From Bartonella sp. ML69XJBT (GTDB taxonomy: Bacteria > Pseudomonadota > Alphaproteobacteria > Rhizobiales > Rhizobiaceae), in NCBI RefSeq assembly GCF_028618515.1, contig NZ_JAQITB010000003.1, positions 89,965 to 153,964 of the forward strand: 64,000 nucleotides of DNA, given 5' to 3'. Positions 5,470-51,420 of this stretch are shown piece by piece (the first letter of the stretch is position 1; every line of letters begins with the position of its first letter). A program made the position numbers and the translations under genes. The notes beneath the pieces are model-generated. The model was not told where the DNA came from. It ran no database searches and was given only the letters and a program-made list of their open reading frames with translations.

Positions 5470-7410
5470 TTATTCATCATTAGTTTCACGTTCATTTTCA
5501 AAAGTATCAATATTTCTAAAGCTATTAGATGGTAAATCAAGGTCATTTTCTTGTTTATTCAGGCGAATATCGACAATTTTCGCTTCTGGGAAATGGTTAA
5601 GTATTTTTGCGATATCAGGATCTGTTTCTGCATTGGAAAAAAGAGTCTTTTGGACAGCTATACTTTCTTCCTGTAAGGTTGGTCCTCCCCCTTCACTGAC
5701 AAAGGTTACAGTCCAGCGTTTTTTTGTCCATTGAAAAAGCATTTTTTCTATATCACAAGCAAGTGAATGTGGAGCGTCTTCAGAAAGCCTCAAGGTAATA
5801 TGCCCTGGTTTAAAGGAAACAGGATGCACAAATTCTTTAATAAGGAGTTTGAAAGGCATCTCATTATACTGTTCAGCTAATTTAACAATATCGTGCAAGG
5901 AATTGATAACAGTGGTTTGCGATACAGTAATTTCTTCTGCATTCCTCCTAGAGGAATGTGATAAATGCGTAATATCTTCAGAAAGCTTAACAGACTTTGA
6001 AGTTTCAAGAGTGTCTGTTATTTCAGGAGTGTTGGTACTTTCAAAAACTTGAGTTTTAGCTGTCTCTTTTTCTTGTAAGGAGTGGCTAAGTTGTTTGCCT
6101 ACGGATGGTTTGAAATCAGATTGATTAGCTGGCACGTTTGAAACGTTTTGGGAAGAATCGGCATATAGAGTTGTTACTTTTGTCGTATTATTTGCATTTG
6201 TGGACTCTTGATGAGATGCGTTTGGGACGATTGTGAGAGATGTTTTTTCTTGGCTAAGTTTTTTTAAGGCTTCATCAAGAGTAGGCAAATCAGCAGTGTG
6301 AGCAAGGCGAATAAGCAACATTTCAGTAGCTTGAAGTGGGTGCGCTGTCTGACTTACCTCTTGTAAGCCTTTGAGTAACATTTGCCAATTTCGAGATAAC
6401 ACAGGGACGGAAAGTTTTTGTGAAAAGCTTAAGCTTCTTAAGCGTTCCTCTTCGGTCAGTGAGAGATCTTCGGCTATCTCTGGAGTAAAACGGAGACGTG
6501 TGACCAGATGATTGAAATCGGCTAATTCTGTCAATATCGTGAGAGGATCAGCCCCTGCATCATATTGGCTACGTAATTCATGCAAGGCATTTACAACGTT
6601 GCCCTTCATGATGAATTCAAAGAGATCAATAATACGTGCTTGATCAGCTAGCCCTAGCATTGCACGCACTGCAACAGCACTAACATTCCCATTGCTATGA
6701 GCAATTGCTTGATCAAAAATGGATAATGCATCACGTACAGAGCCTTCTGCAGCACGAGCAATCATGGAGAGCGCTTGCTCTTCCACTTCTACCTTTTCAT
6801 ATTTTGCAATTTGGTACAAATGTGTACTCAAAACTTTTGCTTCAACACGTCGTAAGTCAAAACGCTGACAACGTGAAAGAATGGTAATAGGAACTTTGCG
6901 AATTTCTGTCGTTGCAAAAATAAATTTTACATGCGCTGGTGGTTCTTCAAGTGTTTTTAAGAGACCATTAAATGCCTGCGTTGAGAGCATATGCACTTCA
7001 TCAATAATATAAACTTTATAGCGAGCAGAAACAGGACGATAACGTATTTGTTCAATGATTTCACGAATATCATCAATACCCGTATGCGAAGCCGCATCCA
7101 TTTCTATAACATCGATATGGCGTCCTTCAATGATTTGTGTGCAATGTTCACCAAGTGTATTTAATACGGTTGTTGGTTGGTCAATATCTTTTGTTTTGTA
7201 ATTGAGTGCACGTGCCAAAATACGTGCTGTGGTTGTTTTGCCAACTCCACGAATTCCTGTTAGCATCCACGCTTGTGCAATGCGACCTGTTTCAAAGGCA
7301 TTTGTAAGGGTACGCACCATAGCTTCTTGACCAATAAGGTCAGAGAAATTTTGAGGCCGATATTTGCGAGCAAGAACACGATAGGTTGTTTCTACCGGCA
7401 TATTTTCCAT
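5470..7410 (-). CDS. dnaX: DNA polymerase III subunit tau/gamma (DnaX)
   Basis: Clamp-loader ATPase of 646 residues. The N-terminal AAA+ core has [16 protein letters not shown], Walker A in [18 protein letters not shown], Walker B in IIDEVHMLS and the sensor region [19 protein letters not shown]. The cysteine-rich zinc module of E. coli DnaX is reduced here to a single Cys (GEHCTQI), as I recall for alphaproteobacterial DnaX. Residues from about 385 to 520 are a poorly conserved linker, and the C-terminus should bind the polymerase. I choose the ATG at 7410 rather than the TTG at 7422. An A7 tract (6259-6265) at codons 383-384 could produce a gamma-like short form; see findings. It starts the dnaX-ebfC-recR run. 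Confidence 0.96.
6259..6265 (-). promoter_or_regulatory. Possible slippery tract in dnaX (A7, -1 frame stops at once)
   Basis: On the coding strand the frame reads TTA AAA AAA CTT AGC. A one-base backward slip on the A7 run reads ACT TAG, so the product would end one residue after the tract, at about residue 385. That is where the clamp-loader part (domains I-III) ends and the linker begins, as in gamma of E. coli. No upstream Shine-Dalgarno-like stimulator or convincing downstream stem-loop is visible, so this is suggestive only. Confidence 0.4.
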
Positions 7411-11489: not shown

Positions 11490-12062
11490 ATGAATCGCTC
11501 AACAGTTGTTTATTTTGTGGTTTCTTGCCTCTTTGTCTTGATTGTTTTGCTGGGAATTTCCACACTTAGCGATATAGTCTATGATAACTCTCCATCGGTT
11601 CAACATTCTTATACGGTAACAAAAATTGATACATCCAAGGGAAAACAACAGGTATCGAGTCCTTCTTTATCATTAAATGAGCGTCTTCAACGGGGTAATC
11701 TTGAAAATGGGCGTAAAATTTTTCGCCAATGTGCTATATGCCATATCTCGGGACGCAATGAAGCTGGTCGTGTTGGTCCAGTTCTTTGGGACATAGTGAA
11801 TCGTCCTTTAGCCGCGTCACCAAGCTTTGCTTATTCACGGGCATTGCGTGCAAATTCTCATCAAAGGTGGGATTTTACAAATTTAGATCGTTATCTACAA
11901 TCACCACGTAGAGCATTTCCAGGAACAACGATGTCTTTTCGTGGGATAAAAAATGATCAAGATCGTGCAGATCTTTTGCTTTATTTACGCAGTTTATCTG
12001 ATAACCCCATTCCTTTACCAATGGATAATAAAGAAGACAAACAAGATCAGACCAAAGATTAA
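11490..12062 (+). CDS. Membrane-anchored c-type cytochrome (CycM-like)
   Basis: 190-residue protein with an uncleaved N-terminal membrane anchor (about residues 7-30), a variable linker, and one class I cytochrome c domain. The heme-binding motif is CAICH near residue 80 (GRKIFRQCAICH), and the likely axial methionine is in FPGTTMSF near 150. In rhizobia such CycM-type proteins pass electrons from the bc1 complex to terminal oxidases. It is divergent from kdsB. The C-terminal tail is short, acidic and Lys-rich. Function is inferred from the domain pattern. Confidence 0.9.
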   Translation: MNRSTVVYFVVSCLFVLIVLLGISTLSDIVYDNSPSVQHSYTVTKIDTSKGKQQVSSPSLSLNERLQRGNLENGRKIFRQCAICHISGRNEAGRVGPVLWDIVNRPLAASPSFAYSRALRANSHQRWDFTNLDRYLQSPRRAFPGTTMSFRGIKNDQDRADLLLYLRSLSDNPIPLPMDNKEDKQDQTKD

Positions 12063-12346
12063 GCTATTTCAGAAGTAAATCATTTTAGAAAGAGACGTGA
12101 TTGATTTTTAGATTTTTATTTTTTTTGAGTATTCCGATGTGCTTTTAATCCACTCAATTCATCTGCCTTTATTGCATAGTGGAATCCGCTACATAAGAAT
12201 TATGCAGATATTTATCCTTAACGCATTGGTTTATTATTAGCATGCGATAGTTTTTTATTATAAAAATATTCCATTAATACTTTAAGATTTATGCGGTTAA
12301 TGATGCTGAAAAAAGCAATTTAATTTTTCAGATTACATCGTCTCGT

Positions 12347-12382
12347 TAACATGTTTTTATTCTTAAGAGTAAAAACATGTTA
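12347..12382. terminator. Perfect 13-bp hairpin, possible bidirectional terminator
   Basis: TAACATGTTTTTA (12347-12359) and its exact reverse complement (12370-12382) flank a 10-nt loop. It lies 285 bp after the cytochrome gene. The arms are AT-rich and there is no long T-run, so its role as a terminator is a guess. Confidence 0.4.
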
Positions 12383-12564
12383 CTTAAATTTTATCCATTA
12401 AAGAAGTGGGAGTGCATTGAATTTAATAGCACTTGGAAATTGGGCATGAGTGACAAATATTTTTCCATTTCCATTTCTTTTTCCTCTCTTGTTAGTAATA
12501 AAACAAAATATGCCCATAAGTGTGTTGGATAAAAATAATTAGCAAATTAGAAAACACAAACACT

Positions 12565-12590
12565 AAAAAACTCCCTTGAGAGTTTTTTTT
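12565..12590 (+). terminator. Candidate rho-independent terminator
   Basis: AAAAAACTC (12565-12573) pairs with GAGTTTTTT (12580-12588) around loop CCTTGA, followed by more T residues. It would separate upstream transcription from the microcin-like cluster. Confidence 0.5.
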
Positions 12591-12891
12591 GAAAACAAAA
12601 TTGATATCATCTCTATATTAGCCCCTATCAAAGGGAGTAAATAAATATTTTAAAGGGTAAATCATTTGAATTTTGTTAAAGTTAGCAATAAATTATTCTA
12701 GGAATAAAGCGTGATAAGAACACGTTTTGCTTATCTTTCGAATATAAAAGAGAGTTCTAATTATGTATTGTTTCTTTTCTATTTTTGAAGGAGTTTCATG
12801 AATATTTTATAAAATTATTCACTCTCTGTCATAAAAGTGTACTGACAATTAATATTTTTTTATAGACAATTGGAAAATAACAAAAGAGATT

Positions 12892-12900
12892 AAGGGGAGG
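12892..12900 (+). promoter_or_regulatory. Strong ribosome-binding site of mccA
   Basis: AAGGGGAGG, with 5 nt to the ATG at 12906. One of the strongest Shine-Dalgarno matches in the window, and the main reason to accept a seven-codon ORF as a real gene. Confidence 0.75.
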
Positions 12901-12905
12901 GTGTT

Positions 12906-12929
12906 ATGGATCATATATTTTGTAACTAA
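12906..12929 (+). CDS. mccA: Microcin C-like heptapeptide precursor MccA (MDHIFCN)
   Basis: Seven sense codons and TAA encode MDHIFCN. E. coli MccA (MRTGNAN) is also seven residues long and ends in Asn; MccB converts that C-terminal Asn and joins it to AMP through a nitrogen-phosphorus bond. Three observations support this as a gene: the ribosome-binding site AAGGGGAGG at ideal spacing, the C-terminal Asn, and its position 84 bp upstream of a convincing mccB. A short stem-loop lies between the two, as in the E. coli mcc operon. The expected product is a formyl-MDHIFC-aspartamide adenylate that, after uptake and proteolysis, would inhibit aspartyl-tRNA synthetase. The Cys next to the modified Asn is unusual. 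It is far below the length detected by ordinary gene finders, so it is probably unannotated. Confidence 0.82.
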   Translation: MDHIFCN

Positions 12930-12950
12930 TGAATAATTTAAAAGAATTCT

Positions 12951-12989
12951 TTTTCCTGTGACAATTTCTCAGGGAAGAGTTTGTTTTGA
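12951..12989 (+). terminator. Stem-loop between mccA and mccB (candidate attenuator)
   Basis: TTTTCCTG (12951-12958) pairs with CAGGGAAGA (12970-12978) with one bulged G, around an 11-nt loop, followed by the T-rich GTTTGTTTT. Partial termination here would give many short mccA transcripts and fewer mccABC transcripts, as reported for the E. coli microcin C operon. A 14-nt palindrome (AAAAGAATTCTTTT, 12940-12953) overlaps its left arm. Confidence 0.5.
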
Positions 12990-13013
12990 TGAGTACATGT
13001 GGGGGGAGAATGT

Positions 13014-14078
13014 ATGGAACAGCAATATATTTTGGGAAAATACACCCGTGTTGTTGTTCGTGAAGAGGATGCCATTTTTGGTGCGGGCTCAAAACAATTT
13101 ATTATCAAGGAGAGAAAATACTGGGAAAATTTAGTACTTATCGCAGCGCAGTGGATTGAGAAAAAGACGGTGGAAGAAGCTTACACTGCGCTATCATCCA
13201 TCATGTTGAGAGAAGACTTTAACCACGCATTTGACTTTCTTTTTTCTAACCACTTTCTTGTTTTGGCTAAGACATCGGACAACATCTTCAAGAATCGATA
13301 TTCAAGGAATCATCTCCATTATCAAAGTTATGGTATGGATCCAGAAACCATTCAATATACCCTTTCACAAAAAATGGTGGTCATTTTAGGGTGTGGTGGG
13401 ATTGGTAGTCATGTATCAGCGATACTTGCATCCTCTGGCGTGGGAAAATTAATTCTTGTCGACAATGATGTGATCGAAATAAGTAACCTTACCAGACAAA
13501 TTCTTTTTACTGAACAAGATGTTGGACTTCCTAAGACCACTGTTCTTCGGCGTGAATTATTGCAGAGAAACAGTGAGAGTGAAGTTACTGAGCTACAAAT
13601 GTCAATAATGGACAAAACGGATATCAACAAATTACCCAAAGCTGATTTATGGATTATTTCTGCTGACACACCTGATCAGTTGATGCCATGGGTAAATGAG
13701 TGGTGTGTAAAGAATCAACAAGCTTATATAAATTCTGGGTATGTCAATGATATAGCTGCGTTTGGACCTTTTTACATACCAGGAAAAACTGGTTGCTATG
13801 CATGTGGTTCATCCATAGGAAATCTTCCTCCAAAAAGTGACGGTTTACTCTATGAGGCTTGCGCTGCTATTAATCATAATTTTAAAGTTGCAACGTTTTC
13901 TCCCGTGAATGCTCTTTCAGCTGCTATGTGTGCTAACGATGCTCTTAAATTTTTAGGTAATTATGGTGATCTCCTTTCCACGGATCGTCGTATAGGAATA
14001 TGGAGTAGCAAGCTTTTCACAGAAGAGCGCTCCTTTAAAAAGATCCCCCACTGCAAAGTTTGTGGAACAAAACAATGA
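13014..14078 (+). CDS. mccB: Microcin C-type peptide adenylyltransferase MccB
   Basis: 354-residue E1/ThiF-type enzyme with the specific signature of MccB rather than MoeB or ThiF. Visible in order: an N-terminal peptide-clamp region (about 1-85, starting MEQQYILGKY, like MDYILGRY of E. coli MccB); NRYSRNHLHYQSYG (about 94-107), which I recall as nearly identical in E. coli MccB; the nucleotide-binding loop ILGCGGIGSHVS (124-135); VDNDVIEISNLTRQILF; the AYINSGYVNDIAAFGP segment; and two zinc-binding CxxC pairs (CYAC 261-264, CKVC 347-350). It should adenylate the C-terminal Asn of MDHIFCN through a succinimide intermediate. I use the ATG at 13014 after GGGGGGA; a GTG lies 15 bp upstream. It overlaps mccC by 4 bp. 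Confidence 0.93.
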   Translation: MEQQYILGKYTRVVVREEDAIFGAGSKQFIIKERKYWENLVLIAAQWIEKKTVEEAYTALSSIMLREDFNHAFDFLFSNHFLVLAKTSDNIFKNRYSRNHLHYQSYGMDPETIQYTLSQKMVVILGCGGIGSHVSAILASSGVGKLILVDNDVIEISNLTRQILFTEQDVGLPKTTVLRRELLQRNSESEVTELQMSIMDKTDINKLPKADLWIISADTPDQLMPWVNEWCVKNQQAYINSGYVNDIAAFGPFYIPGKTGCYACGSSIGNLPPKSDGLLYEACAAINHNFKVATFSPVNALSAAMCANDALKFLGNYGDLLSTDRRIGIWSSKLFTEERSFKKIPHCKVCGTKQ

Positions 14079-15310
14079 ACAGATCTCGAACGCTTGCAGT
14101 AACCTACGGATCTTATCACGCGGTACGGATGTTAATCGGTGTTTATCATGCTATTTTTCTCATGTCTATGGGGGTTACTCTATCCCAATTGGCTTTACTT
14201 CAAGTCGCCTTTTCGGTAACCGTTTTACTTCTTGATTTTCCTTGTGCTGTTTTCGCTGACAGATATCGGCGTAAATATTCAGTAACGGTTGGGTTTTTTA
14301 TGACGGGATTGTTTTATCTTCTCTGTCTTCAAGCCCCTAATATGATAGCGCTTATCATTGCACAAATCCTCTATGCAGCAGGAATTTGCCTCATTGCTAG
14401 CGCCATTGATGGATGGATTTATCATTTTCTAGGGCATCAACAAGATCGCTTTTCGTATTATGCACATCTCTCTCACCAGATAAACTCTTTCGGTAGCATT
14501 ATCAGTGGTATCATAGGAATTGCAACGATCTATTATTCTAGGCAATATTTTATGGGGTATATTATCTCAGGCATCATGATGGGGGTAATTTTCTTTATAT
14601 TTCTTATTGTTCCTGAAGAAAAAACATCTGTGAATGAAGGGACAAAAACAAAGACGATCTTGCAAAATGCTAAGGAAACGCTCTGGGTATTTAAAAACAC
14701 CGTGGGTGGAGCATGGTTTATTTTGCTAATGTGTCTGTTCAGTGCTGGTATTCAGATTATTTATCACTTCTGGCAGCCAATAATACTCTCTGGTGGAAAG
14801 ATTAGCCACCTCAACACTTCGCAAATGTTGACACTTATGTTTTGCCATATTGGAGCTTTCTCAGCGCAATATTTTTCTAATTTACTGATGTCTAAGTATC
14901 ACGTACTTGATAAAAAATATAAGGATTATATGAAATATTTTTCATTTTTCTCTGCCCTTATGTGTATTGCTCTTTATTTTTTTGTCCATAGCAATCAAAC
15001 CGTTCTAGCAATTATCGCCTTTTCTTTAATTCATGGATTTATTTGCACTGTACCGATAGGAGCAAAGAGTCTGTTTTTCTCAGAGCTTACCCAAAAACAA
15101 ACTGGGCATATTTCTGGTATTATTGGTGCTGTATCTTTCAGTGGAAGAATATTTTCAATAACGGTGTTAAGCGCTATTTCATTTCTTCCTGCAAAAATTT
15201 CACCGTCTTGTTATCTTGTACTACCGACTTTAACTTTTTTCCTATGTGGTTTGGTCACCATCAGGTGGATGTCGCTCTCTGGTAAATCTATTTTGAAAAA
15301 AACAATATGA
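14075..15310 (+). CDS. mccC: MFS exporter in the MccC position (peptide-nucleotide efflux and self-protection)
   Basis: 411-residue major facilitator superfamily protein with about twelve hydrophobic segments. The loop after the second segment carries DFPCAVFADRYRRKYSVTVG, the MFS motif A (D-x-x-x-D-R-x-x-R/K). Its ATG overlaps the mccB stop as ATGA, indicating translational coupling. In E. coli, mccC is an MFS pump of similar size (about 400 residues) that exports microcin C and contributes to immunity. Sequence alone shows only MFS; the MccC role is inferred from the operon. No terminator is obvious downstream. Confidence 0.85.
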   Translation: MNRSRTLAVTYGSYHAVRMLIGVYHAIFLMSMGVTLSQLALLQVAFSVTVLLLDFPCAVFADRYRRKYSVTVGFFMTGLFYLLCLQAPNMIALIIAQILYAAGICLIASAIDGWIYHFLGHQQDRFSYYAHLSHQINSFGSIISGIIGIATIYYSRQYFMGYIISGIMMGVIFFIFLIVPEEKTSVNEGTKTKTILQNAKETLWVFKNTVGGAWFILLMCLFSAGIQIIYHFWQPIILSGGKISHLNTSQMLTLMFCHIGAFSAQYFSNLLMSKYHVLDKKYKDYMKYFSFFSALMCIALYFFVHSNQTVLAIIAFSLIHGFICTVPIGAKSLFFSELTQKQTGHISGIIGAVSFSGRIFSITVLSAISFLPAKISPSCYLVLPTLTFFLCGLVTIRWMSLSGKSILKKTI

Positions 15311-15623
15311 CAAATACAGTTGAAAAATATTTGCTTCTGAAGTTTTGGAGATCAGAAAAATAATCAGGATTTATTTTACGAATGAAACAGGAAAATTTGT
15401 CGCCAGAAATTTTTCTATGATGTAAATTACTGAATACAGTGCACTGAAATCATATAGAATTCTGTATGGCTGAATTTGCTTTATTTCATCAAACACGGTT
15501 TCTAAGATTTCTCTAAAAAACTGCAACTTTACTTTCATTCTAGAGTATAGAGAAAAGAACTTTAACAGAAGTTGTGAGGATATGAAAAAAAAGAGATTAT
15601 TGATATATTGACGCTTTGCATGA
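15311..15623. other. Non-coding, probably the decayed front part of the ABC gene
   Basis: About 310 bp with stops in all frames. It lies where the N-terminal half (including Walker A) of the following ATPase should be, but I could not recognise any conserved motif in it. Confidence 0.4.
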
Positions 15624-16004
15624 GATTTACCTCGTTCTTTTTCTCTGCTATGTTATCCCCATGAGTTTTCTCGTAGACAGAGAAAGCGCATCGCTTTTAC
15701 ATATGCAGTTATCCTTAAACTACGTTTTATCATGCTTGATGAACCTACGGCTTCTCTTGATGTAAGTGTGCAGCACAGATTATTGACCTTTTGCGTCATC
15801 TACAACCAAAATATCATTTTTGGGTATCTGTTCATGAGTCGTGATTTGAAAGTCATTAAAGCGCTTTCACGTGAAGTGATTGTGAAGCGTAATGGAGAAA
15901 TGGTTGAATATGGTTCTGCTGATCGTATTTTTTCTTATCCCCAAAAATTTTTATACGAAAGTCTGATGACAGCAGCATTCTTTTTAGATTTTTGTTACCT
16001 ATAG
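15624..16004 (+). pseudogene. Remnant of a YejF-like oligopeptide ABC transporter ATPase
   Basis: Only the C-terminal third of an ABC ATPase is left. The frame reads CYPHEFSRRQRKRIAF, then FIMLDEPTASLDVSVQ, then FMSRDLKVIKALSREVIV and VEYGSADRIFSYPQ. The signature motif, normally FSGGQRQRIA, has become FSRRQRKRIA; the switch His of ISHDL has become Arg (MSRDL). Walker A and the whole first half are missing, so it cannot work. The closest family pattern is YejF, the fused ATPase of the YejABEF importer (DLKVIKAL and VEYG match rhizobial YejF from memory). YejABEF takes up microcin C in E. coli, so its presence next to mccABC may matter. A general DppF/OppF origin is the alternative. Confidence 0.72.
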
Positions 16005-16019
16005 GAATGAGTATTATAC

Positions 16020-16100
16020 GGACCATCCATTCTAGAAAAGATTTGTCTTAATCAATAATTCGCCAATATTTATGATCAGTTTAATAGCTTCTGTAGCGTT
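16020..16100 (-). pseudogene. Partial, diverged copy of the moeB 3' region
   Basis: About 80 bp aligns with 16265-16345 inside the adjacent moeB-like gene: CCATTCTAGAA against CCATTATAGAA, TTCGCCAATATTTATGATCAGTTTAAT against the same string with two changes, then AGCTTCTGTAGC. It corresponds to the EAIKLITNIGEPLVGK part of the protein but has an altered frame. It lies outside the intact gene, at the right end of the accessory segment with the microcin-like genes, and may mark a past insertion or duplication boundary. Confidence 0.6.
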
Positions 16101-16201
16101 TTGGTGATTTGCAGTAAAAGATTGGTGTTTTCGGCTTCAGGAGATTTTGTAAGAATGTTACAAGTTTGTGGATTAGAAAAGAGCACATTTTCCTAAAATT
16201 C

Positions 16202-16978
16202 TTAAGGCGCATGGATATTTTTATTAGAATTTGACCGTTTATAGGTAATGACATTAAATTGCGCTGATAATCCATTATAGAAGAGAATTTTACCTACTAA
16301 TGGTTCGCCAATATTTGTGATTAGTTTAATGGCTTCCATGGCTTGTAGTGTTCCGATCACTCCAGGTAAAATGCCGATGATTCCAATTTCAGCACATGTT
16401 GGGACAACACCAGGGGCGGGCGGACTGGGGAATAAGTCGCGATAGTGAGGATTATGGTCTTTATAAGGCATAAGGACTGTCAGTGAGCCGCTAAAACGTT
16501 CTACAGCACCACTTATTAAGGGTTTTTTACAGTGAGCAGCGTGATCAGCAAGCAAATAACGTGTGGTAAAATTATCACATCCATCAATAATAATGTGGTA
16601 GGCGTTGATCAGTTTATCCACATTACTTTTATCCAAGTGGATATTATGTTTTTCAACGCTAACATGGGGGTTTATGTCTTTGATAAAAGCAGTGGCGCTC
16701 TCCGTTTTACGTTGATGAATTGTGTTGGTTTTATGAATCACTTGGCGTTGTAAATTGGAAAGCGAAACGATATCATCATCAACAATTCCAAGAGTACCAA
16801 CGCCTGCGGCAGCTAAATAGGTTAAGATAGGGGAGCCAAGACCGCCAGCACCAACAACAAGAACACGTGCGGCTTTAAGCTTTTGTTGTCCCGCTCCACC
16901 AATTTCAGGCAGAATGATGTGACGTGCATAGCGTTCAATTTCTTCACTGCTTAATTTTGTGTCAGTGTCTTGTATCAT
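16202..16978 (-). CDS. moeB: HesA/MoeB/ThiF-family adenylyltransferase (MoeB-like)
   Basis: 258-residue E1-like enzyme that should adenylate the C-terminal Gly of a ubiquitin-like sulfur carrier (MoaD or ThiS). Motifs: ERYARHIILPEIGGAGQQKL at the start, nucleotide loop VVGAGGLGSPILTYLAAAGVG, VDDDIVSLSNLQRQVIH, DGCDNFTTRYLLAD, and PTCAEIGIIGILPGVIGTLQAMEAIKLI. The two CxxC zinc pairs of E. coli MoeB are absent, and there is no rhodanese domain; similar zinc-less short forms occur in alphaproteobacteria. MoeB and ThiF roles cannot be separated from sequence alone. It is divergent from gshB. Confidence 0.85.
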   Translation of the reverse strand: MIQDTDTKLSSEEIERYARHIILPEIGGAGQQKLKAARVLVVGAGGLGSPILTYLAAAGVGTLGIVDDDIVSLSNLQRQVIHKTNTIHQRKTESATAFIKDINPHVSVEKHNIHLDKSNVDKLINAYHIIIDGCDNFTTRYLLADHAAHCKKPLISGAVERFSGSLTVLMPYKDHNPHYRDLFPSPPAPGVVPTCAEIGIIGILPGVIGTLQAMEAIKLITNIGEPLVGKILFYNGLSAQFNVITYKRSNSNKNIHAP

Positions 16979-43793: not shown

Positions 43794-45197
43794 ATGAATG
43801 AAAACAATGAGAGTGAGCGGATTGCTAAAAGATTAGCACGCGCAGGTATTGCTTCGCGTCGCGATGCAGAAATGATGATTGTTGCAGGTCGTATTGTTGT
43901 TAATGGTAAAGTTGTGACGACACCTGCTTTTAATGTTGCTTACTCTGATGTTATTAAAGTTGATGGTAAACCTTTGTCTCCTATAGAACGAACGCGGTTA
44001 TGGCTTTACCACAAGCCGGCGGGGCTTGTCACCACGAACCGTGATCCTGAAGGTAGACCCACAGTGTTTAGCAATTTGCCAAAAGGAATGCCTCGTGTTC
44101 TTTCGGTAGGAAGGTTGGACATTAATACAGAAGGGCTTTTGCTGTTAACCAATGATGGTGGTTTATCGCGCGTATTAGAGTTGCCTTTAACGGGGTGGGT
44201 GCGCAAATATAGGGTTCGTGCCCATGGACGAGTAAAACAGAGTGCACTTGATAACCTTAAAAATGGCATAGCTATTGATGGTATTTTCTATGGTGCGATT
44301 GAAGCATCAATTGAACGTGAACAAGGATCAAATATATGGCTTTCTGTAGCTTTACGTGAAGGAAAAAATCGTGAAATAAAAAAGGTTCTTGGTGCATTAG
44401 GATTATCAGTTAATCGTTTAATCCGTGTCTCTTATGGCCCGTTTCAGCTTGCTGATTTGGAAGAAGGAGGGGTGCGTGAGATAAAAGGTCGGATGTTACG
44501 TGAGCAATTAGGTGAACGTTTAATTATGCAAGCCAATGCAAATTTTGATGCTCCTATTCTGAAACCCTTTTCAAATTCTGTAGTTATTGCAGAAAAACGA
44601 AGCGATAAAGATTTTGTTCATAACAATGAAGGTTGGATTTTCTCAAGTGGGAAAGAAATACAGCGTAAAAAACAAGGTGGATCTGCAAAACATAATCAAT
44701 CACGATTAGGAATAACATCTGATGCAAAATTTATGCGCAAGGATAAGAATGAGGAAGGAAAAGGAGAGCGTTTTTTGCCTCGTTCGCGTCGTTCTAATGT
44801 TTGGATGGCTCCTGGCGCACGTCCACAGAGTACACTCAAAAAATCTTTCTATAGTGAAAAATCTTCTTATGAACATAAAAACAGTTTAGCAGATAAAAGA
44901 TCTTTCCGTAAATCGAAAGAAAAGCTTTCAGATGTTCCATTGCAGAAAGAAAGCGATACTCGTTTTGATCAAAAACATGGTAAAAAATCTTTTGCTGAAA
45001 TGCGTTCTGTTGGCAAGAAAGGGCGTTTTTTTAAGAAAAAAGAAAAGGTTATGGAAGGCAATAATGATAAACATTCTTTTGAGGATAAGAAAAGGGCTCA
45101 ATCATTTACTGGTTCCATGAACAAATCTAAAACATATAAGGGAGCGGCAAAAACAGTGAAGAGATCTGGAGGACGAGGTGCGGATCGTCGGCGGTAA
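43794..45197 (+). CDS. rluB: 23S rRNA pseudouridine synthase, RluB/RsuA family, with long basic tail
   Basis: 467 residues. An S4 RNA-binding domain ([31 protein letters not shown], about 5-50) precedes the RsuA-type catalytic domain with [19 protein letters not shown] (catalytic Asp) and [29 protein letters not shown]. From about residue 260 to the end is a Lys/Arg/Ser-rich, probably disordered tail of about 200 residues, which is common in alphaproteobacterial RluB and may aid RNA binding. I choose the ATG at 43794 after AAAGAG; the open frame begins 45 bp earlier. Overlaps rsmD by 20 bp. Confidence 0.92.
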
Positions 45198-45735
45198 ATT
45201 TGCTGGGCGTGTTTTGTGTGCACCCATGGGACAGTCAATTCGTCCAACAAGTGATCGTACGCGCGAAAGCCTTTTCAATATTCTTGCCAGCCGAGAAGAG
45301 CAATTTTGGACCAACAAACGTGTTTTAGATCTTTTTGCTGGTACTGGTGCTTTGGGCATAGAGGCTCTATCGCGGGGGGCAAAAGCTGCTGTTTTTGTTG
45401 AAAACTCTGTTGAGGGGCGTGCACTCATACAAAAAAATATTGAAGCTTTTGAATTGCAATCCATGGGGCGCATTTTGCGTCGTGATGCAACAAAACTTGG
45501 CAATATTGGCACGATGCTCCCATTTGATGTCGTTTTTGCAGATCCTCCCTATGGACATTGTTTAGGTGAGCGTGCTTTTGTAGAGGTGTTACAAGGGGGC
45601 TGGGCAAAAGTGCATGCACTCTTTGTGCTTGAAGAAAAAAAAGATGCAACGATTCATTTACCTGAGACTTTTTATCTCGATGATGAGCGTTTTTATGGTG
45701 AGACAGCAATGCGCCTTTATAAACTGCGATCATAG
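45178..45735 (+). CDS. rsmD: 16S rRNA (guanine(966)-N2)-methyltransferase RsmD
   Basis: 185-residue Rossmann-fold methyltransferase. [16 protein letters not shown] and [17 protein letters not shown] mark the family; [20 protein letters not shown] is the SAM-binding motif [12 protein letters not shown] is the catalytic DPPY. The start is GTG at 45178 with TGGAGG upstream, inside the end of rluB (20-bp overlap), so the two are translationally coupled as in other rhizobia. Confidence 0.96.
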
Positions 45736-45754
45736 ATTTAGGCTTGAGGAAGTC

Positions 45755-45790
45755 CTCACTTTTATCTGAGAGAGTGAGAAAAATTATTCT
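45755..45790 (+). terminator. Weak candidate terminator after rsmD
   Basis: CTCACT (45755-45760) pairs with AGTGAG (45773-45778) around a 12-nt loop, followed by AAAAATTATT. Weak; no T-tract. Confidence 0.3.
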
Positions 45791-46030
45791 ATATTACTTT
45801 TTATGAAATAATTGCTATTTTAGTCAACAGTGGCTTTTAAATTGTTCAAGAGATGCGAAAGCTTTATACTTCCTTATTTTATCACCCGTATATAATTAGA
45901 TATATTTTTCTATACGATGCAGCTAAAGATAGAGAACACGATATAAATGCTTTGACCAATACAAGATTTTAATGTCAGTCAAGTAATATCAAGAGAAAGT
46001 ATTATTACTCTTTGTTTTTGGCGGTCGAGA
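45791..46030. other. Spacer, nothing recognised
   Basis: Part of a non-coding stretch of almost 1 kb between rsmD and the transketolase pair; the middle of that stretch holds repeat R1 copy C. Confidence 0.4.
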
Positions 46031-46262
46031 TAATATATTGATTTATAATAATAAATAATCATTCATTCATAGTGAATAATAACTCTGAATACAGTAAATT
46101 GTTCTCATCTCAATCTCATATTGCATCAATGAAAATCACTTCCTTGCACCCTATAGCGGGGAAAGCGTGGGGATAAAAACACTTCAAGAGAAGAGTAAAA
46201 ATATCTTTTATGAACACTCTCAGGTGCCAAGAGCTATTGCGATATTGGGGGCAGGCAAATAA
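46031..46262 (-). repeat. Dispersed intergenic repeat family R1, copy C
   Basis: Read on the minus strand: ATTTGCCTGCCCCCAATATCG, AATAGCTCTTGG, CTGAGAGTG, GTGCAAGGAAGTGATTTTCATTGAT, TGTATTCAGAGTTATT, and the end ATTATAAATCAATATA. Clear similarity to copies B and D; the GTGCAAG-x-AAGTGATTTT-x-ATTGAT block is best preserved here and in D. Confidence 0.75.
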
Positions 46263-46709
46263 GCTTGATGGCGATAGTTTGCATCGTCATAAGCATAAAG
46301 AAATGATGCACGAAGGCTTTTCTTATACTATCATGAGCCTATTACGAAATGGGCTTGAGTAAATTGAGAAATATTGAAAAAAAGCGCATATCTTGGCAAG
46401 ACAATGGCATTTTGTCGCGTTCTGTTTTGCATAAGCGGCGTGTTTCCATGAAGAACGCGCTAAAAAATAACATGAAACAATGGATAATTTCTGTGAGATA
46501 AAACTCTTGATAAGATTATCTCAAGACGCAATCTTTAAAATTGAATGAGTTAATAATTCTATGTCTTTTCTCTCTGCACAAATTTTATCACATTTAAATC
46601 CTCTTTATCATGGGGTAATGATCTTACACGTTTAAAATAAAGATTAAGTAGTGTATAAAATCACAATTTGAGGTGGTTTTTATAAATCTTTTAAGGGGGG
46701 GGAGAAGAT
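46263..46709. other. Spacer upstream of the transketolase pair
   Basis: Mostly non-coding. 46270-46500 is slightly less AT-rich and may be gene debris, with no recognisable family. The promoter of the transketolase genes should be near 46600-46690. Confidence 0.4.
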
Positions 46710-47558
46710 ATGGCTTATGCAACCAATAAAGCAGATATTGATGATGCGATTTATGCTCTTCGTTTACGCCTTAAAATACTTGATCTTATTAGAAAAGCAA
46801 AATCTGGTCATACGGCTGGAAGCCTTTCCTGTATTGATTTTATTTATATCTTATACAAACATATTCTTCAAATAAATCCAAAGCGTATCCATGATCCCAA
46901 TCGCGATCGATATGTTCAAAGTAAGGGGCATGCGGTTGAAGCATTATATATTGTATTATCAGAAATGGGATATTTTGCCCCTCAACTTCTTGATACTTAT
47001 TTAAACTTTGGTTCAGATTTTATTGGTCATGTCACTAAAAAAGTCTCTGGTATAGAACAAAGCACAGGTTCTCTTGGGCATGGTTTATCTCTTGGTGCAG
47101 GAATGGCTCTTTCTGGACAGCTTAATTCTCAATCTTATCGTGTTTTTGTGCTTCTTGGTGATGGCGAAATGACAGAGGGTTCTGTTTGGGAAGCTGCACT
47201 TTTTTCAGCACATTATAAACTGAGCAATCTCATCGCCGTTGTTGATAGAAATCGGTTACAAATTACAGATAAAACGGATGTCTTAATGAAAACAGAGCCC
47301 TTAGCAGATAAATTTACAAGTTTTGGCTGGCATGTTGTAGAAATTGATGGTCACGATATGGCCCAATTGAAAACATCATTAAAATTACTTCCATTTCATC
47401 AGGATAAGCCAACAGCAATCATTATGAATACCATAAAGGGAAGTGGAATTTCCACTATGGAAAATGACATAATTTGGCACCATAAAGTTCCAACAGATGA
47501 GGAATATAATCTTGCTGTCAAAGAAATTGAAACAAAAATTCAATTAATGGGAATATGA
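46710..47558 (+). CDS. Transketolase, N-terminal (TPP-binding) subunit
   Basis: 282 residues that correspond to the first half of transketolase. The thiamine-diphosphate motif is LGDGEMTEGSVWEAALFSAHYKLSNLIAVVDRN (GDG...N) at about 150-182; SGHTAGSLSCIDFIYILY and STGSLGHGLSLGAGMA are also typical. It needs the C-terminal subunit encoded next (4-bp overlap). Split transketolases occur in many bacteria and archaea, often beside a normal tkt. Substrates here are probably pentose-pathway sugars, but related split enzymes serve other pathways. Ribosome-binding site AAGGGGGGGAG. Confidence 0.92.
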   Translation: MAYATNKADIDDAIYALRLRLKILDLIRKAKSGHTAGSLSCIDFIYILYKHILQINPKRIHDPNRDRYVQSKGHAVEALYIVLSEMGYFAPQLLDTYLNFGSDFIGHVTKKVSGIEQSTGSLGHGLSLGAGMALSGQLNSQSYRVFVLLGDGEMTEGSVWEAALFSAHYKLSNLIAVVDRNRLQITDKTDVLMKTEPLADKFTSFGWHVVEIDGHDMAQLKTSLKLLPFHQDKPTAIIMNTIKGSGISTMENDIIWHHKVPTDEEYNLAVKEIETKIQLMGI

Positions 47559-48520
47559 GTGTGGATCATCTTCATCAAAAAACACAAAATGCCGTGAAGT
47601 TTTCAAACCTCGAAATCTTAAATAAGACTCTTATAAAAATAGCGCAATTTGATAAAGATATTGTTGTTTTAACAGCTGATTCACGCTTATCTGGAAAGAT
47701 TGATCAATTTGCAAAGCTCTATCCAGAGCGTATTATAGAAGTTGGAATTGCTGAACAAAATTTAGTAGGTGTTGCTGCTGGTCTTGCTTCATGTGGCAAA
47801 AAGCCTTTTGTTGTTTCGCAGGCTTGTTTTTTGACAACGCGTGCCCTTGAACAAATAAAGGTAGATGTCGCTTATTGTGAAAATCCTGTTCGGTTAATTG
47901 GTATTAGTGCTGGTATTAGCTATGGGCCACTTGGGGCAACCCATCATGCTATTGCCGATTTTGCTTCGCTTCGTGCCATTCCCAACATACACATTATGGC
48001 TCCTGCCGATAATAAAGAAACAGAAGCTGCAATTCTTTCGACGTTAAGCAGTCCTATGCCTGCTTATATACGTTTAGGAAAGCGTGCTCTTACAAATATT
48101 CATAAAGATGCTGCAAAAATTGATATCAATAAAGCTTCTGTTGTAAAAAAAGGAAAAGATATTCTCTTACTTGCCACTGGTGAAGCGGTGCAGATTTGTC
48201 TTAAAGCGGCTGAAGAACTCAAAAAATATGAAATTATACCAACAGTTGTCAGTGTACCAACAATTCGCCCTTTAGATAACGCATCTGTATTAGAATTTTG
48301 TAAATCCCACCGTTCTGTCGTTGTTTGTGAAGAACATAGCATAAATGGAGGGCTTGGAGAAGCAATTGCGAGATTACTCATGGAACAGAACATTGTCTGT
48401 AAATTTGTTTCATTAGGAATACCAGATGAACCAATCTGTAATGGAAGTCAATTAGATGTTCTAGCACATTATGAAATCAGTAAAGATGGTATAACGAAAA
48501 AGGTACTAGCAATGATATAA
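47555..48520 (+). CDS. Transketolase, C-terminal (pyrimidine-binding) subunit
   Basis: 321 residues that correspond to the second half of transketolase. The conserved Glu that activates TPP is in VGIAEQNLVGVAAGLA (about 66-81). GISYGPLGATHHAIADFASLRAIPNIHIMAPAD is the pyrimidine-domain loop, and the C-terminal transketolase_C domain includes VVVCEEHSINGGLGEAIA. It starts within the stop of the N-terminal subunit gene (ATGA overlap). The pair is isolated between non-coding regions of about 1 kb, which may point to a transferred or relocated cassette. Confidence 0.92.
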   Translation: MSVDHLHQKTQNAVKFSNLEILNKTLIKIAQFDKDIVVLTADSRLSGKIDQFAKLYPERIIEVGIAEQNLVGVAAGLASCGKKPFVVSQACFLTTRALEQIKVDVAYCENPVRLIGISAGISYGPLGATHHAIADFASLRAIPNIHIMAPADNKETEAAILSTLSSPMPAYIRLGKRALTNIHKDAAKIDINKASVVKKGKDILLLATGEAVQICLKAAEELKKYEIIPTVVSVPTIRPLDNASVLEFCKSHRSVVVCEEHSINGGLGEAIARLLMEQNIVCKFVSLGIPDEPICNGSQLDVLAHYEISKDGITKKVLAMI

Positions 48521-48873
48521 TATACACAAAACATGAAACTTGCTTGCTCATGTGTTTTCCAGCTTAAACAATAACGTATTGAGAATGCAAAAAATGAGAT
48601 AAATAAGCATATTAAATTGCGCTTTTTTATTGCTTAAAAACGGATTTCACCAAAGCCATATCATATCCATAGAATATATGATTCAATAAATTCCACATAA
48701 ATTATAGCTCATAATAACACATATTATTTTTTAATAAAATTAGTTTATATGCATTAACAATTTAATTGTAAATTAAAATAACACTAAATAAAATTTATAA
48801 CTTTAATTTTTATAACAATATAAAAAAATGATTAAGATATTATTTTAAACGTTTTTATAAATAGGAGGGGAAA
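48521..48873. other. AT-rich spacer, nothing recognised
   Basis: Very AT-rich (48700-48850 is almost only A and T). It separates the transketolase pair from a possible small membrane peptide. No hairpin terminator obvious. Confidence 0.4.
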
Positions 48874-48957
48874 ATGCTCATAGCATTATTTATAAGGATT
48901 TTTTCTATATCAACAGTTATTATGACTTTAATAGCAGCGCTTGTTCATTATTATTAG
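48874..48957 (+). CDS. Possible 27-residue hydrophobic membrane peptide
   Basis: ATG at 48874 after AGGAGGGG (spacing 4) and 27 codons to TAG. The sequence begins MLIALFIRIFSIS and continues TVIMTLIAALVHYY, so nearly the whole peptide is one membrane-spanning segment with a single Arg. It resembles small membrane peptides such as type I toxins or transporter helpers, but no family match is known to me. It lies just before repeat R2 copy 2. Confidence 0.45.
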   Translation: MLIALFIRIFSISTVIMTLIAALVHYY

Positions 48958-48980
48958 GCTTTTGTCTTTCCTATTATCGT

Positions 48981-49217
48981 AGTTATGCTGTAAAACACTG
49001 TTATTTGAGGTGTGGTGATATAAGGTATGTAAAATTTTGCACATTAAGTATTTTTAGGTAATGTAATAAATGCTCAGAGCAGGATTTGTCCATAGAACCT
49101 CTGAAATGAATCATACAAATGGTCAGCAGGTGGCGTCTGCTAGACAAGAAACTGGATTATTTATAGACCTTGCACTGGTAGGAAGCTTCGTCATTTGAGA
49201 TGTGAAGAGGGGAACAA
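48981..49217 (+). repeat. Dispersed intergenic repeat family R2, copy 2
   Basis: Aligns with 8210-8448 in the same orientation: CTGTAAAACACTG, GGTGATATAAGGTATGTAAA, CACATTAAGTATTTTT, GGTCAGCAGGTGGC, TTATAGAC, GAAGCTTCGTCATTTGA, AGAGG. The last part of both copies is AG-rich. Overall identity is perhaps two thirds. Confidence 0.7.
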
Positions 49218-49366
49218 TATAGTTATGAGGCATTTTCTATCACTTTATAGAGAAGATTTTTGAGCTGTTCGCTTTAATGTTAGCTGTTAACATGTTTGTG
49301 AAATATACAAATATGCTTCTTTATAAAAAAGATTTTTTTCTTTTTAAGTAATAGAGGATATTGTTT

Positions 49367-50518
49367 TTATTGCTCAAAAACATATGAATTTGCCAAACTT
49401 TCGTGTGTAATATCTTTAACTGTGCGAGCACCGGTTAGTGTCATAGCGACCCGCATTTCATTTTCGAAAAGATCAAGCAGTTGAACAACACCTTTCTCAC
49501 CGGCTGCTGCAAGTGCATAAACAAAAGCTCGACCAATCATAACAGCATCCGCACCCTGTGCTATCATACGTACAACATCAAGACCAGAACGCACACCAGA
49601 ATCCGCTAAAATAGTCAAATCTCCCTTTACAGTTTCCGCAATTGTTGGCAATGCCCGTGCCGTTGATAAGACACCATCAAGTTGACGTCCTCCATGATTG
49701 GAAACAACAATACCATCAGCACCAAATTGTAATGCTTCTCGTGCATCTTCTGGATCAAGAATACCTTTCAAAATCATCTTTCCCTTCCAAAAGTCTCGAA
49801 TCCATTGCAAATCACGCCAACCAATTGAGGGATCAAAATTTTCTCCAAGCCAACCAACATAATCGTCCAATGCAATCTTTTTTTGCAAATAGGTAGAAAC
49901 ATTTCCAAGATCATGTGGACGTCCCATAATACCAACATTCCAAGCCCAATGTGGATGGGTAAAAGCTTGTAAAACACGGCGTAACCCAGCATAAGGACCA
50001 GACATTCCAGAATGCGCATCACGATAACGTGCACCAGGAACTGGCATATCAACTGTAAAAACCAAAGTGCGTATCCCAGATGCCCAAGATCGTTCTAATG
50101 CATCACGCATAAATCCGCGATCTTTGAGAACATAAAGTTGAAACCAAAATGCACTTCCAACAGCTTTTTGCACTTCTGCAATGGGGCAGACTGAAACTGA
50201 GGATAGAGTAAAAGGTATCCCTTTTGCAACGGCAGCGCGTGCAGCTTGTACCTCACCACGACGTGCATACATGCCAGTTAGTCCAACAGGTGCAAGTATA
50301 ATGGGTAAATGAAGTGTTTGATCAAAAAGCTTAAGTGAAAGATCAACTTTATCAATTTGCTTGAGAATCCTTTGGCGTAGTGCAAGCGCTTGAAGATCTG
50401 TAAAATTACGTCGCATCGTTTCTTCAGCATAAGCTCCACCATCGATATAGTGAAAAAGGAAAGGAGGAAGGCGGCGTTTTGCTGCTTTACGGTAATCAAC
50501 TGTTGAGGAAATAATCAT
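49367..50518 (-). CDS. lldD: FMN-dependent alpha-hydroxy-acid dehydrogenase, probable L-lactate dehydrogenase
   Basis: 383-residue flavoprotein of the L-lactate/glycolate oxidase family. FMN and substrate residues are seen in [31 protein letters not shown], the catalytic His in [15 protein letters not shown] (about 272-286), [30 protein letters not shown]. Length and the [20 protein letters not shown] start match LldD, which oxidises L-lactate and feeds the respiratory chain. No lldR or lldP is next to it. Start is uncertain: ATG at 50518 or GTG at 50530, with no good ribosome-binding site for either. Confidence 0.9.
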
Positions 50519-51420
50519 GAAGTGCACCACTGTTTTTGAATGAAAAGCGAAAACACTCTAAAGCGAATAAGAACCAATCCGCACGCCTCCAATGAGACGT
50601 CTTCCCCAATATTCTATTCAGTAGAGGTAGGCAATTAAGATTGCAACTCAAAAAAACACATTGATAACAACAACATCTTTATTGTTCTTTTCTAGATTAA
50701 AAATCTGATGGTGATACGTCTTCATCAATAACCTCCCAGAAATGTTGTTTTAGTCATTTATTTTCATTTTAAATTAGTATTTCTCTTAATAAACTATAAA
50801 AGTACCTCATATGACAGTTTATACAAGTCACATTGAGTATATATCAAAAAAAATCCCTCCTCTAAAGATAAAAAACGTATTCATAGAATGTCTGATAGGC
50901 AGCTAGAAATGCTTTTCTACAAGCGGACTGAATAATGCTAGCTGTTTTTCTAATTTAAATTTATCAAATCATAGATTTCTTGATTAATTTAAGGCACTTT
51001 AAAGAATTTTAAATAATAAATACATATAAAGAGAAAAATCTCATTTTCTTTAAAAATTTTCTACGTATACTATAAATTGATTATAGACAGAGAATACAAT
51101 TTATTGATTCTTATCAAAGTGAGCTTTGAACAACAGGTGAGCCATATCTAAAAAGTTATGAAGAATACTATATGGGAAAAATGTGTTACTGCTCTATCAA
51201 CAAAAACGTCTATTTTTATTTTTAACGATATTTTATAATAAAACAAAATGTATGATATTTTTTACAATTTGTAAAAGTGAAACGCGTAGTGGCAAGAGAC
51301 TTTACGCATTCAGTTGGAGGAATGCACAAAGTAAGAGCATATAATATATGGAAAAACTAAAGCTTTTCTTTTACTCTCATAGTTTTTTGCAAATATTTTA
51401 CCAAAGCTTGTGTTTTCACA
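50519..51420. other. Intergenic region of 900 bp, one possible leader ORF
   Basis: Contains a 25-codon ORF on the minus strand (listed separately) upstream of lldD, and otherwise AT-rich DNA with no gene. The part next to the dCTP deaminase gene (51100-51420) shows nothing I can identify. Confidence 0.45.
50648..50725 (-). CDS. Possible 25-residue leader ORF upstream of lldD
   Basis: ATG (50723-50725) preceded by GGGAGG at a spacing of 7; 25 codons beginning MKTYHHQIFNLEKNN and ending in VFF. It lies 130 bp upstream of lldD on the same strand. The ribosome-binding site is much better than that of lldD, so it may be a leader peptide; it could also be chance. Confidence 0.33.
   Translation of the reverse strand: MKTYHHQIFNLEKNNKDVVVINVFF

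Follow-up and report, generated by a model that had tools for sequence, protein, structure and literature searches.

We identified an intact microcin C-type operon, mccABC, in a 64 kb stretch of contig NZ_JAQITB010000003.1 from Bartonella sp. ML69XJBT (hereafter the window; the genome of this strain is G000), in which the operon stands in place of yejBEF. The YejABEF transporter is the entry route of microcin C (PMC6495379, PMC9239234), and in Escherichia coli isolates a frameshift in yejB accompanies resistance to this antibiotic (PMC10926693). The operon is predicted to make formyl-MDHIFC-isoasparaginyl-AMP (AMP, adenosine monophosphate), and the producer is likely immune because the matching importer is gone, a reading that we consider probable. 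An initial annotation of the window had recognised the operon, and that reading stood; it missed the position of the operon in the yejBEF slot and also a second mcc operon elsewhere in the genome, decayed but with mccE intact. It had also noted that a Bartonella (B. washoensis) was among the genomes predicted to carry mcc operons, and such operons, of the same type, have indeed been reported for Bartonella (Bantysh et al. 2014, as cited in PMC10949449). What appears to be new here is the importer swap and the retention of mccC. Among the titles and passages searched on Bartonella with mcc or yej genes and on YejABEF with self-immunity, nothing was found on a substitution of mcc for yejBEF or on the survival of mccC where mccB is lost; PMC3910550 names mccB only among the listed genes of a comparison of B. 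florencae with B. tribocorum.

The swap is seen by comparison with B. henselae (G023), where the gene order is pheA-kdsB-cycM-yejB-yejE-yejF-thiF-gshB-pstS. The window has pheA-kdsB-cycM-mccA-mccB-mccC-(yejF stump)-thiF-gshB-pstS. The B. henselae genes that hold the slot are 49-54% identical to E. coli YejB, YejE and YejF, and are orthologues of the transporter that imports microcin C in E. coli; a YejBEF-YepA peptide importer is described in Rhizobiales (PMC9790009). Only the end of yejF is left in the window: yejB and yejE are missing, as are some 400 codons at the start of yejF. The remaining stump has 77% nucleotide identity (window 15607-16091) and 65% protein identity (residues 421-532) to the terminal part of yejF in B. 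henselae. We surveyed the slot in 46 loci. Thirteen of them (the window, G070, G009, G001, G022, G049, G052, G069, G031, G027, G018, G013 and G005) carry mcc genes or remnants and then a yejF stump, with no match to yejB or yejE, and in all 13 mcc lies directly against the stump. The evidence that bears directly on a link of mcc with loss of the importer is this physical adjacency. A yejF stump alone was found in 20 loci, starting near residue 341-367 in 15 of them, near 446 in three and near 453 or 472 in the others. The rest comprised eight loci with yejBEF (two of them, in G011 and G038, with a frameshift in yejB), two with decayed yejBEF, two with nothing recognisable and one at a contig end.

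Importer loss is more than a local deletion, as the binding protein, which is encoded elsewhere, is also gone from the importer-less genomes tested. A 605-residue YejA-like protein, unlinked to yejBEF, is 32% identical to E. coli YejA over its length, and a search with the SBP_bac_5 domain in ten genomes found this YejA/YepA-like protein in five of five with YejBEF and in none of five without; G064 retains only an 87-residue fragment with stops. E. coli YejA itself found no match in the window genome, although this probe is too distant to be relied on. Full-length YejB is present in 30 of the 71 Bartonella genomes in our genus survey and absent from the window genome. In a group of 41 genomes whose KdsB is at least 85% identical to that of the window, it was found in only three (G023, G024 and G039), compared with 27 of the 30 genomes outside the group. 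The window genome does hold 34 matches to YejF; the best of these (41-46%, from two separate open reading frames at C35) were rejected as YejBEF since they look like an Opp/Dpp operon, whose permease is only 25% identical to YejB. This locus (L123, G000:C35, about 44000-51200) encodes an Opp/Dpp-type peptide transporter with two binding proteins and is a possible alternative route of peptide entry.

The identity of the operon is supported by domain and homology searches, which upheld the MccB type, the exporter of the major facilitator superfamily (MFS), the heptapeptide and the likely product put forward in the initial annotation. MccB matches the structures of E. coli MccB (3h5n/6om4) with 365 bits over residues 3-353, and the next family, ThiF, scores 71 bits. 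It thus has the full length of an MccB, with an N-terminal peptide clamp and a ThiF adenylation domain, and the motifs noted earlier were located in it: NRYSRN at residue 94, GCGGIG at 126, and the two CxxC pairs CYAC at 261 and CKVC at 347. The initial annotation had suggested comparison with known mcc operons, and we used E. coli microcin C (mccABCDEF, plasmid MccC7-H22, NC_010257.1). The two systems share a 7-codon mccA ending in Asn, a strong Shine-Dalgarno sequence, a hairpin, mccB (47% identity to the plasmid-borne protein), mccC (45%), gene order and spacing class. They differ in that the E. coli system is plasmid-borne and uses the precursor MRTGNAN, whereas the window operon is chromosomal, sits in the importer slot, encodes MDHIFCN and lacks mccD, mccE and mccF, none of which lies within the window. 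Apart from mccA and mccB, the operon contains only the gene of a dedicated MFS_1 transporter, which by homology would be an exporter; the next genes are the yejF stump and thiF. Minimal mcc operons of this kind have been described (PMC9239234).

A short precursor, of seven residues in most cases, with a C-terminal Asn and a strong Shine-Dalgarno sequence is part of the definition of microcin C-type systems (PMC6495379), and such a precursor is encoded just upstream of mccB in the window. Its codons are ATG GAT CAT ATA TTT TGT AAC TAA. The coordinates given in the initial annotation proved exact: the Shine-Dalgarno sequence lies 5 nucleotides before the start, 84 nucleotides separate the mccA stop from the mccB ATG, and mccB (354 codons) overlaps mccC (411 codons) by 4 nucleotides. 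All three genes are unbroken. The window contains 85 ATG-started 7-codon frames on both strands, four of which end in Asn, and mccA is the only one of these that also has GGAG or GAGG just upstream; the frame with its Shine-Dalgarno sequence therefore exceeds chance expectation. In 21 Bartonella loci the mccB start could be placed and the upstream region read, and a 7-codon Asn-ending frame was present at -92 to -108 from mccB in 11.

The initial annotation had proposed that its reading would fail if relatives kept mccB but not the 7-codon frame or its final Asn. Both are kept in six of the seven genomes with intact mccB. The precursors in these genomes are MDHIFCN (window), MDHIGFN (G070, B. 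washoensis), MDHRGFN, MDHIGFN, MDHMGCN, MDYRNYNA and MDHLECN. The sole exception, MDYRNYNA, is that of G023 (B. henselae) and has no clear Shine-Dalgarno sequence; for B. henselae and B. quintana, microcin production has been stated to be inactivated (PMC10949449, citing another paper). The Cys beside the final Asn, regarded earlier as unusual, is not unique within the genus, since three of the six intact pairs end in CN (MDHIFCN, MDHMGCN and MDHLECN) and three in FN (MDHIGFN twice and MDHRGFN). This natural set, MDH plus three variable residues plus Asn, would show what the MccB clamp can accommodate. Five of these precursor sequences were absent from the main texts searched, which did not include the table of PMC6495379.

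We also found a hairpin followed by a T-rich stretch between mccA and mccB, which is of the terminator type and is predicted to end transcription. The same 13-pair stem can form in all 21 placed loci, with 92.6% of cells pairing, and seven of the 13 pairs are altered on both sides, a level that none of 500 shuffles reached. The signal was lost when the partner was slid by 1 to 3 columns, and a 16-locus subset gave the same result. Taken alone, the window hairpin has a modest energy (-14.0, compared with a shuffled mean of -8.6 and standard deviation of 2.5, about 2 standard deviations below). The E. coli plasmid likewise has a hairpin in its 74-nucleotide mccA-mccB gap, and there it is a terminator that yields a short mccA RNA (PMC6495379).

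By analogy with E. coli, the ribosome would translate the 7-codon mccA to a large extent from a short transcript that stops at the hairpin. MccB would then attach AMP, via an N-P bond, to the Asn at the C terminus; AMP rather than cytidine monophosphate is assumed from the E. coli-type MccB and the 7-residue precursor. MccC would export the product, and a neighbour with YejBEF and the binding protein would import it and trim the peptide, so that its aspartyl-tRNA synthetase would be blocked, as with E. coli microcin C. The known self-protection of microcin C producers consists of export together with enzymes that break down or acetylate the toxin once it has been processed. If the proposed reading is true, a producer lineage that has no uptake transporter and carries the toxin operon at the locus of that transporter would follow a different immunity logic, and its predicted victims would be those Bartonella, and other bacteria of the gut or of vectors, in which YejBEF is still present. 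The swap may have had a price. YejBEF-YepA recycles cell-wall (peptidoglycan) fragments in Agrobacterium (PMC9790009), and its loss is therefore costly there; the Bartonella swap may likewise have cost the cell this recycling.

Importer loss probably does not act alone, and protection of the producer would also involve export and probably an MccE homologue encoded elsewhere. This intact 589-residue protein at G000:C69 is 42% identical to E. coli MccE (residues 1-587), and its GNAT acetyltransferase part scores 168 bits to PDB 3r95. It lies in the second, decayed operon (L122, 4777-8555), together with an mccC fragment and a split mccD (52% to E. coli). The mccE gene of L122 is 89-98% identical in six other genomes (98% in G050), and MccE homologues occur in 15 of the 71 genomes. 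In one of these, G047, which has YejBEF but lacks mccB, only the acetyltransferase part is present (L154, about 6200-6700), as though it had been retained for resistance. Immunity through an MccF-kind S66 peptidase was rejected for the window strain, since no S66 peptidase was found in its genome by a search that was positive in six of 14 control genomes.

Across the genus, MccB matches were found in 31 of the 71 genomes and MccC matches in 38 (both at 1e-20; that of G053 is only a paralogue of MccC), and 37 genomes carry some trace of the window-type operon. An open reading frame census of 40 loci (these 37 genomes plus three second copies) found mccB intact in seven genomes (the window, G070, G009, G001, G064, G023 and G032), among which MccB is identical or near-identical to that of B. 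washoensis (G070), B. alsatica (G001), B. taylorii (G064, 353 of 354 residues) and B. henselae (G023). A family-wide search of 394 genomes drawn from the larger family found MccB only in the window genome; the draw held seven other Bartonella. The nearest MccB proteins outside Bartonella were P0007 (69%) and Pectobacterium odoriferum P0012 (64%), and no mobile source was found, as a plasmid search matched only E. coli (27 records) and Salmonella (2 records), at 47%.

A further mcc site, dapB-gpmA-mcc-omp, holds a decayed copy in the window genome as well as in G052 and G018. When window 12063-16205 was compared by blastn with eight loci of this site, a shared segment was found at 78-83% identity, which differs from its surroundings. 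In the MccB tree, importer-slot copies and other-site copies form two groups (support 55 and 89). In the flanking-gene tree, the B. henselae group, which keeps the importer, diverges first (support 100, with 93 for all the others as one group); G011 and G031 depart from this pattern. The protein tree of the site flanks placed several genomes differently from the nucleotide tree, and we used only the well-supported splits of the latter. The simplest history would be one replacement after the split of the B. henselae group, followed by loss of either copy; the two exceptions mean that exchange took place as well. G011 itself (L173, 2363-6225) has a near-intact yejBEF with the yejB frameshift and is the sister of a swapped genome, so the importer was either retained or regained by exchange.

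The exporter has often outlived the synthetase. Full-length mccC is present in 21 genomes, 15 of which lack an intact mccB (in G036, one of the 15, through a single early stop), and the reverse case, intact mccB without full mccC, occurs once (G009). G026 was left out of the 21 for a frame change near codon 28 (by frame length alone there are 22); an earlier mccB-less set numbered 16. By Nei-Gojobori pairs, the ratio of non-synonymous to synonymous substitution rates (dN/dS) of mccC in the mccB-less genomes was 0.099 (16 genomes, 120 pairs), or 0.102 without G026 and G036 (91 pairs). Among genomes with a common old truncation of mccB, the mccB remnants gave 0.58-1.22 with a median of 0.83 (6 genomes, 15 pairs), and mccC beside them gave 0.05-0.10 (5 of those genomes, 10 pairs). 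Since mccC is constrained while the mccB remnants are not, mccC is useful without mccB. One reading is protection against a product made by kin, which raises the question of whether the exporter alone protects against such an antibiotic. Orphan or retained immunity genes occur in bacteriocin and contact-toxin systems, where a protection gene likewise outlasts the toxin gene; here, unlike in those systems, the retained gene is an exporter and the toxin operon physically replaces an uptake system. As most of the mccB-less genomes with mccC have no importer either, a different cargo or a different way into the cell has to be taken into account; phazolicin, for instance, is taken up through BacA in addition to YejABEF (PMC10128002). 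G017 and G025 (L102 and L101) have full mccC and no recognisable mccB at all.

Several observations weigh against importer loss as the basis of producer immunity, and the causal role of mcc in that loss stays correspondingly conditional. Any mcc trace goes with absence of YejB across the genus (3 genomes with YejB and 34 without; 27 and 7 among genomes with no trace; p 5e-10), but within the 41-genome group YejB loss is not commoner with mcc (Fisher p 0.59 for intact mccC and 1.0 for any trace), and all four group genomes without an mcc trace also lack YejB. The association therefore rests on one lineage, which importer loss and mcc presence both track. A sign test (1 vs 16, p 2.7e-4) was not relied on, as it included G026 and counted related genomes as if they were independent. 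That the importer can be lost without a swap is shown by the two different yej breakpoints among non-swapped genomes, and the swapped G031 lies beside the non-swapped G032 in the tree, so the site has also moved sideways. Near-intact yejBEF persists in G011, the sister of the swapped G018, and B. henselae has intact mccB, mccC and yejBEF, though its mccA is changed. Lastly, immunity by importer loss does not explain why mccC is under selection in genomes that lack both the importer and mccB.

These points bear on the rival explanations. The operon could be a working microcin C system whose placement reflects a gene-poor, often rearranged spot, with the importer lost for other reasons and immunity provided by export and MccE. 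The 20 stump loci, where yejBEF is missing although mcc lies at the other site, agree with this, as do the four trace-free genomes just mentioned, the intact mccE homologue, and the decay of yejBEF in G007, a genome without window-type mccB or mccC. Coincidence does not readily account for the adjacency in all 13 swapped loci, for the disappearance of the unlinked binding protein in all five importer-less genomes tested, or for the loss of the Asn-ending 7-codon mccA frame in the only genome with intact mccB, mccC and yejBEF, and we think it rather unlikely. A stronger possibility, though one with the chances still leaning against it, is that MccC is kept as a general exporter of another peptide, a nucleotide or a drug, so that mcc explains only part of the locus. 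The 15 genomes with full mccC and no intact mccB (dN/dS 0.03-0.19), most of them without the importer, favour it. Such a job would be dispensable, however, since 33 of the 71 genomes have no MccC match at 1e-20, and intact mccB stays coupled to mccC through the 4-nucleotide overlap.

It is improbable that the cluster is a relic that makes little or nothing and is unbroken in the window strain by chance. Decay is common, with mccB broken in 30 of the 37 genomes with any trace, including the close relative G052 (whose mccB part is 98% identical), and with the other-site copy and the second operon of the window genome itself both decayed. The window, on the other hand, retains three unbroken genes, the Shine-Dalgarno sequence and the hairpin, the seven intact mccB genes give dN/dS of 0.098-0.158 over 21 pairs, and the MccB of B. 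acomydis, 92% identical, is also full-length. The least probable alternative, by a long way, is that MccB is a different ThiF-type enzyme of ribosomally synthesised and post-translationally modified peptides (RiPPs), of the pantocin or enterofaecin type, with the heptapeptide not its substrate. The ThiF fold is common to several RiPP systems (PMC12250964), but the best PDB matches are three MccB sequences at about 364-366 bits, compared with 47.5 for PaaA (5ff5), and we rejected other RiPP enzymes as its identity on these scores; an Asn-ending heptapeptide, hairpin and MFS exporter also match the E. coli order. A bolder extension of our preferred reading, plausible but somewhat short of an even chance, is that mccABC landed in yejBEF and deleted it, a single recombination thus bringing both the weapon and the immunity. 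The importer system with its binding protein would then have vanished, and non-makers would have kept the exporter since kin in shared rodents and fleas still make the antibiotic.

Table. Positions of the mccABC operon, its regulatory elements and the borders of the importer slot in the window
Feature	Position	Strand	Basis
Shine-Dalgarno sequence AAGGGGAGG of mccA	12892..12900	+	Direct reading; 5 nucleotides ahead of ATG
mccA, precursor heptapeptide MDHIFCN	12906..12929	+	Sequence reading; equivalent frames in relatives
Hairpin and following T-rich stretch, terminator-like (arms 12949-12958, 12970-12979)	12949..12979	+	Fold, covariation
mccB, ThiF-fold peptide adenylyltransferase	13014..14078	+	Pfam ThiF 8.5e-42; E. 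coli MccB structures; plasmid MccB
mccC, MFS exporter	14075..15310	+	Pfam MFS_1 1.9e-20; 45% to E. coli MccC, 398 residues
Segment shared with mcc copies at the other site (widest extent)	12795..15341	+	blastn against 8 loci of that site (site B)
Stump of yejF (ATPase gene of the YejBEF importer)	15607..16004	+	Nucleotide and protein match to B. henselae yejF
Cytochrome c family gene (cycM-like), left border of importer slot	11490..12062	+	Same yejB neighbour in B. henselae
thiF/moeB-like gene, right border of importer slot	16202..16978	-	Same yejF neighbour in B. henselae

Mcc-related loci of other types were also noted. In a type-2 cluster, MccC2 gave dN/dS of 0.14-0.26. A third type, present in G001 and G039, encodes a ThiF-family protein of 371-376 residues (about 30% identity to MccB) with an MFS gene immediately after it (L158, 4003-5218, complement; L159, 4557-6889).

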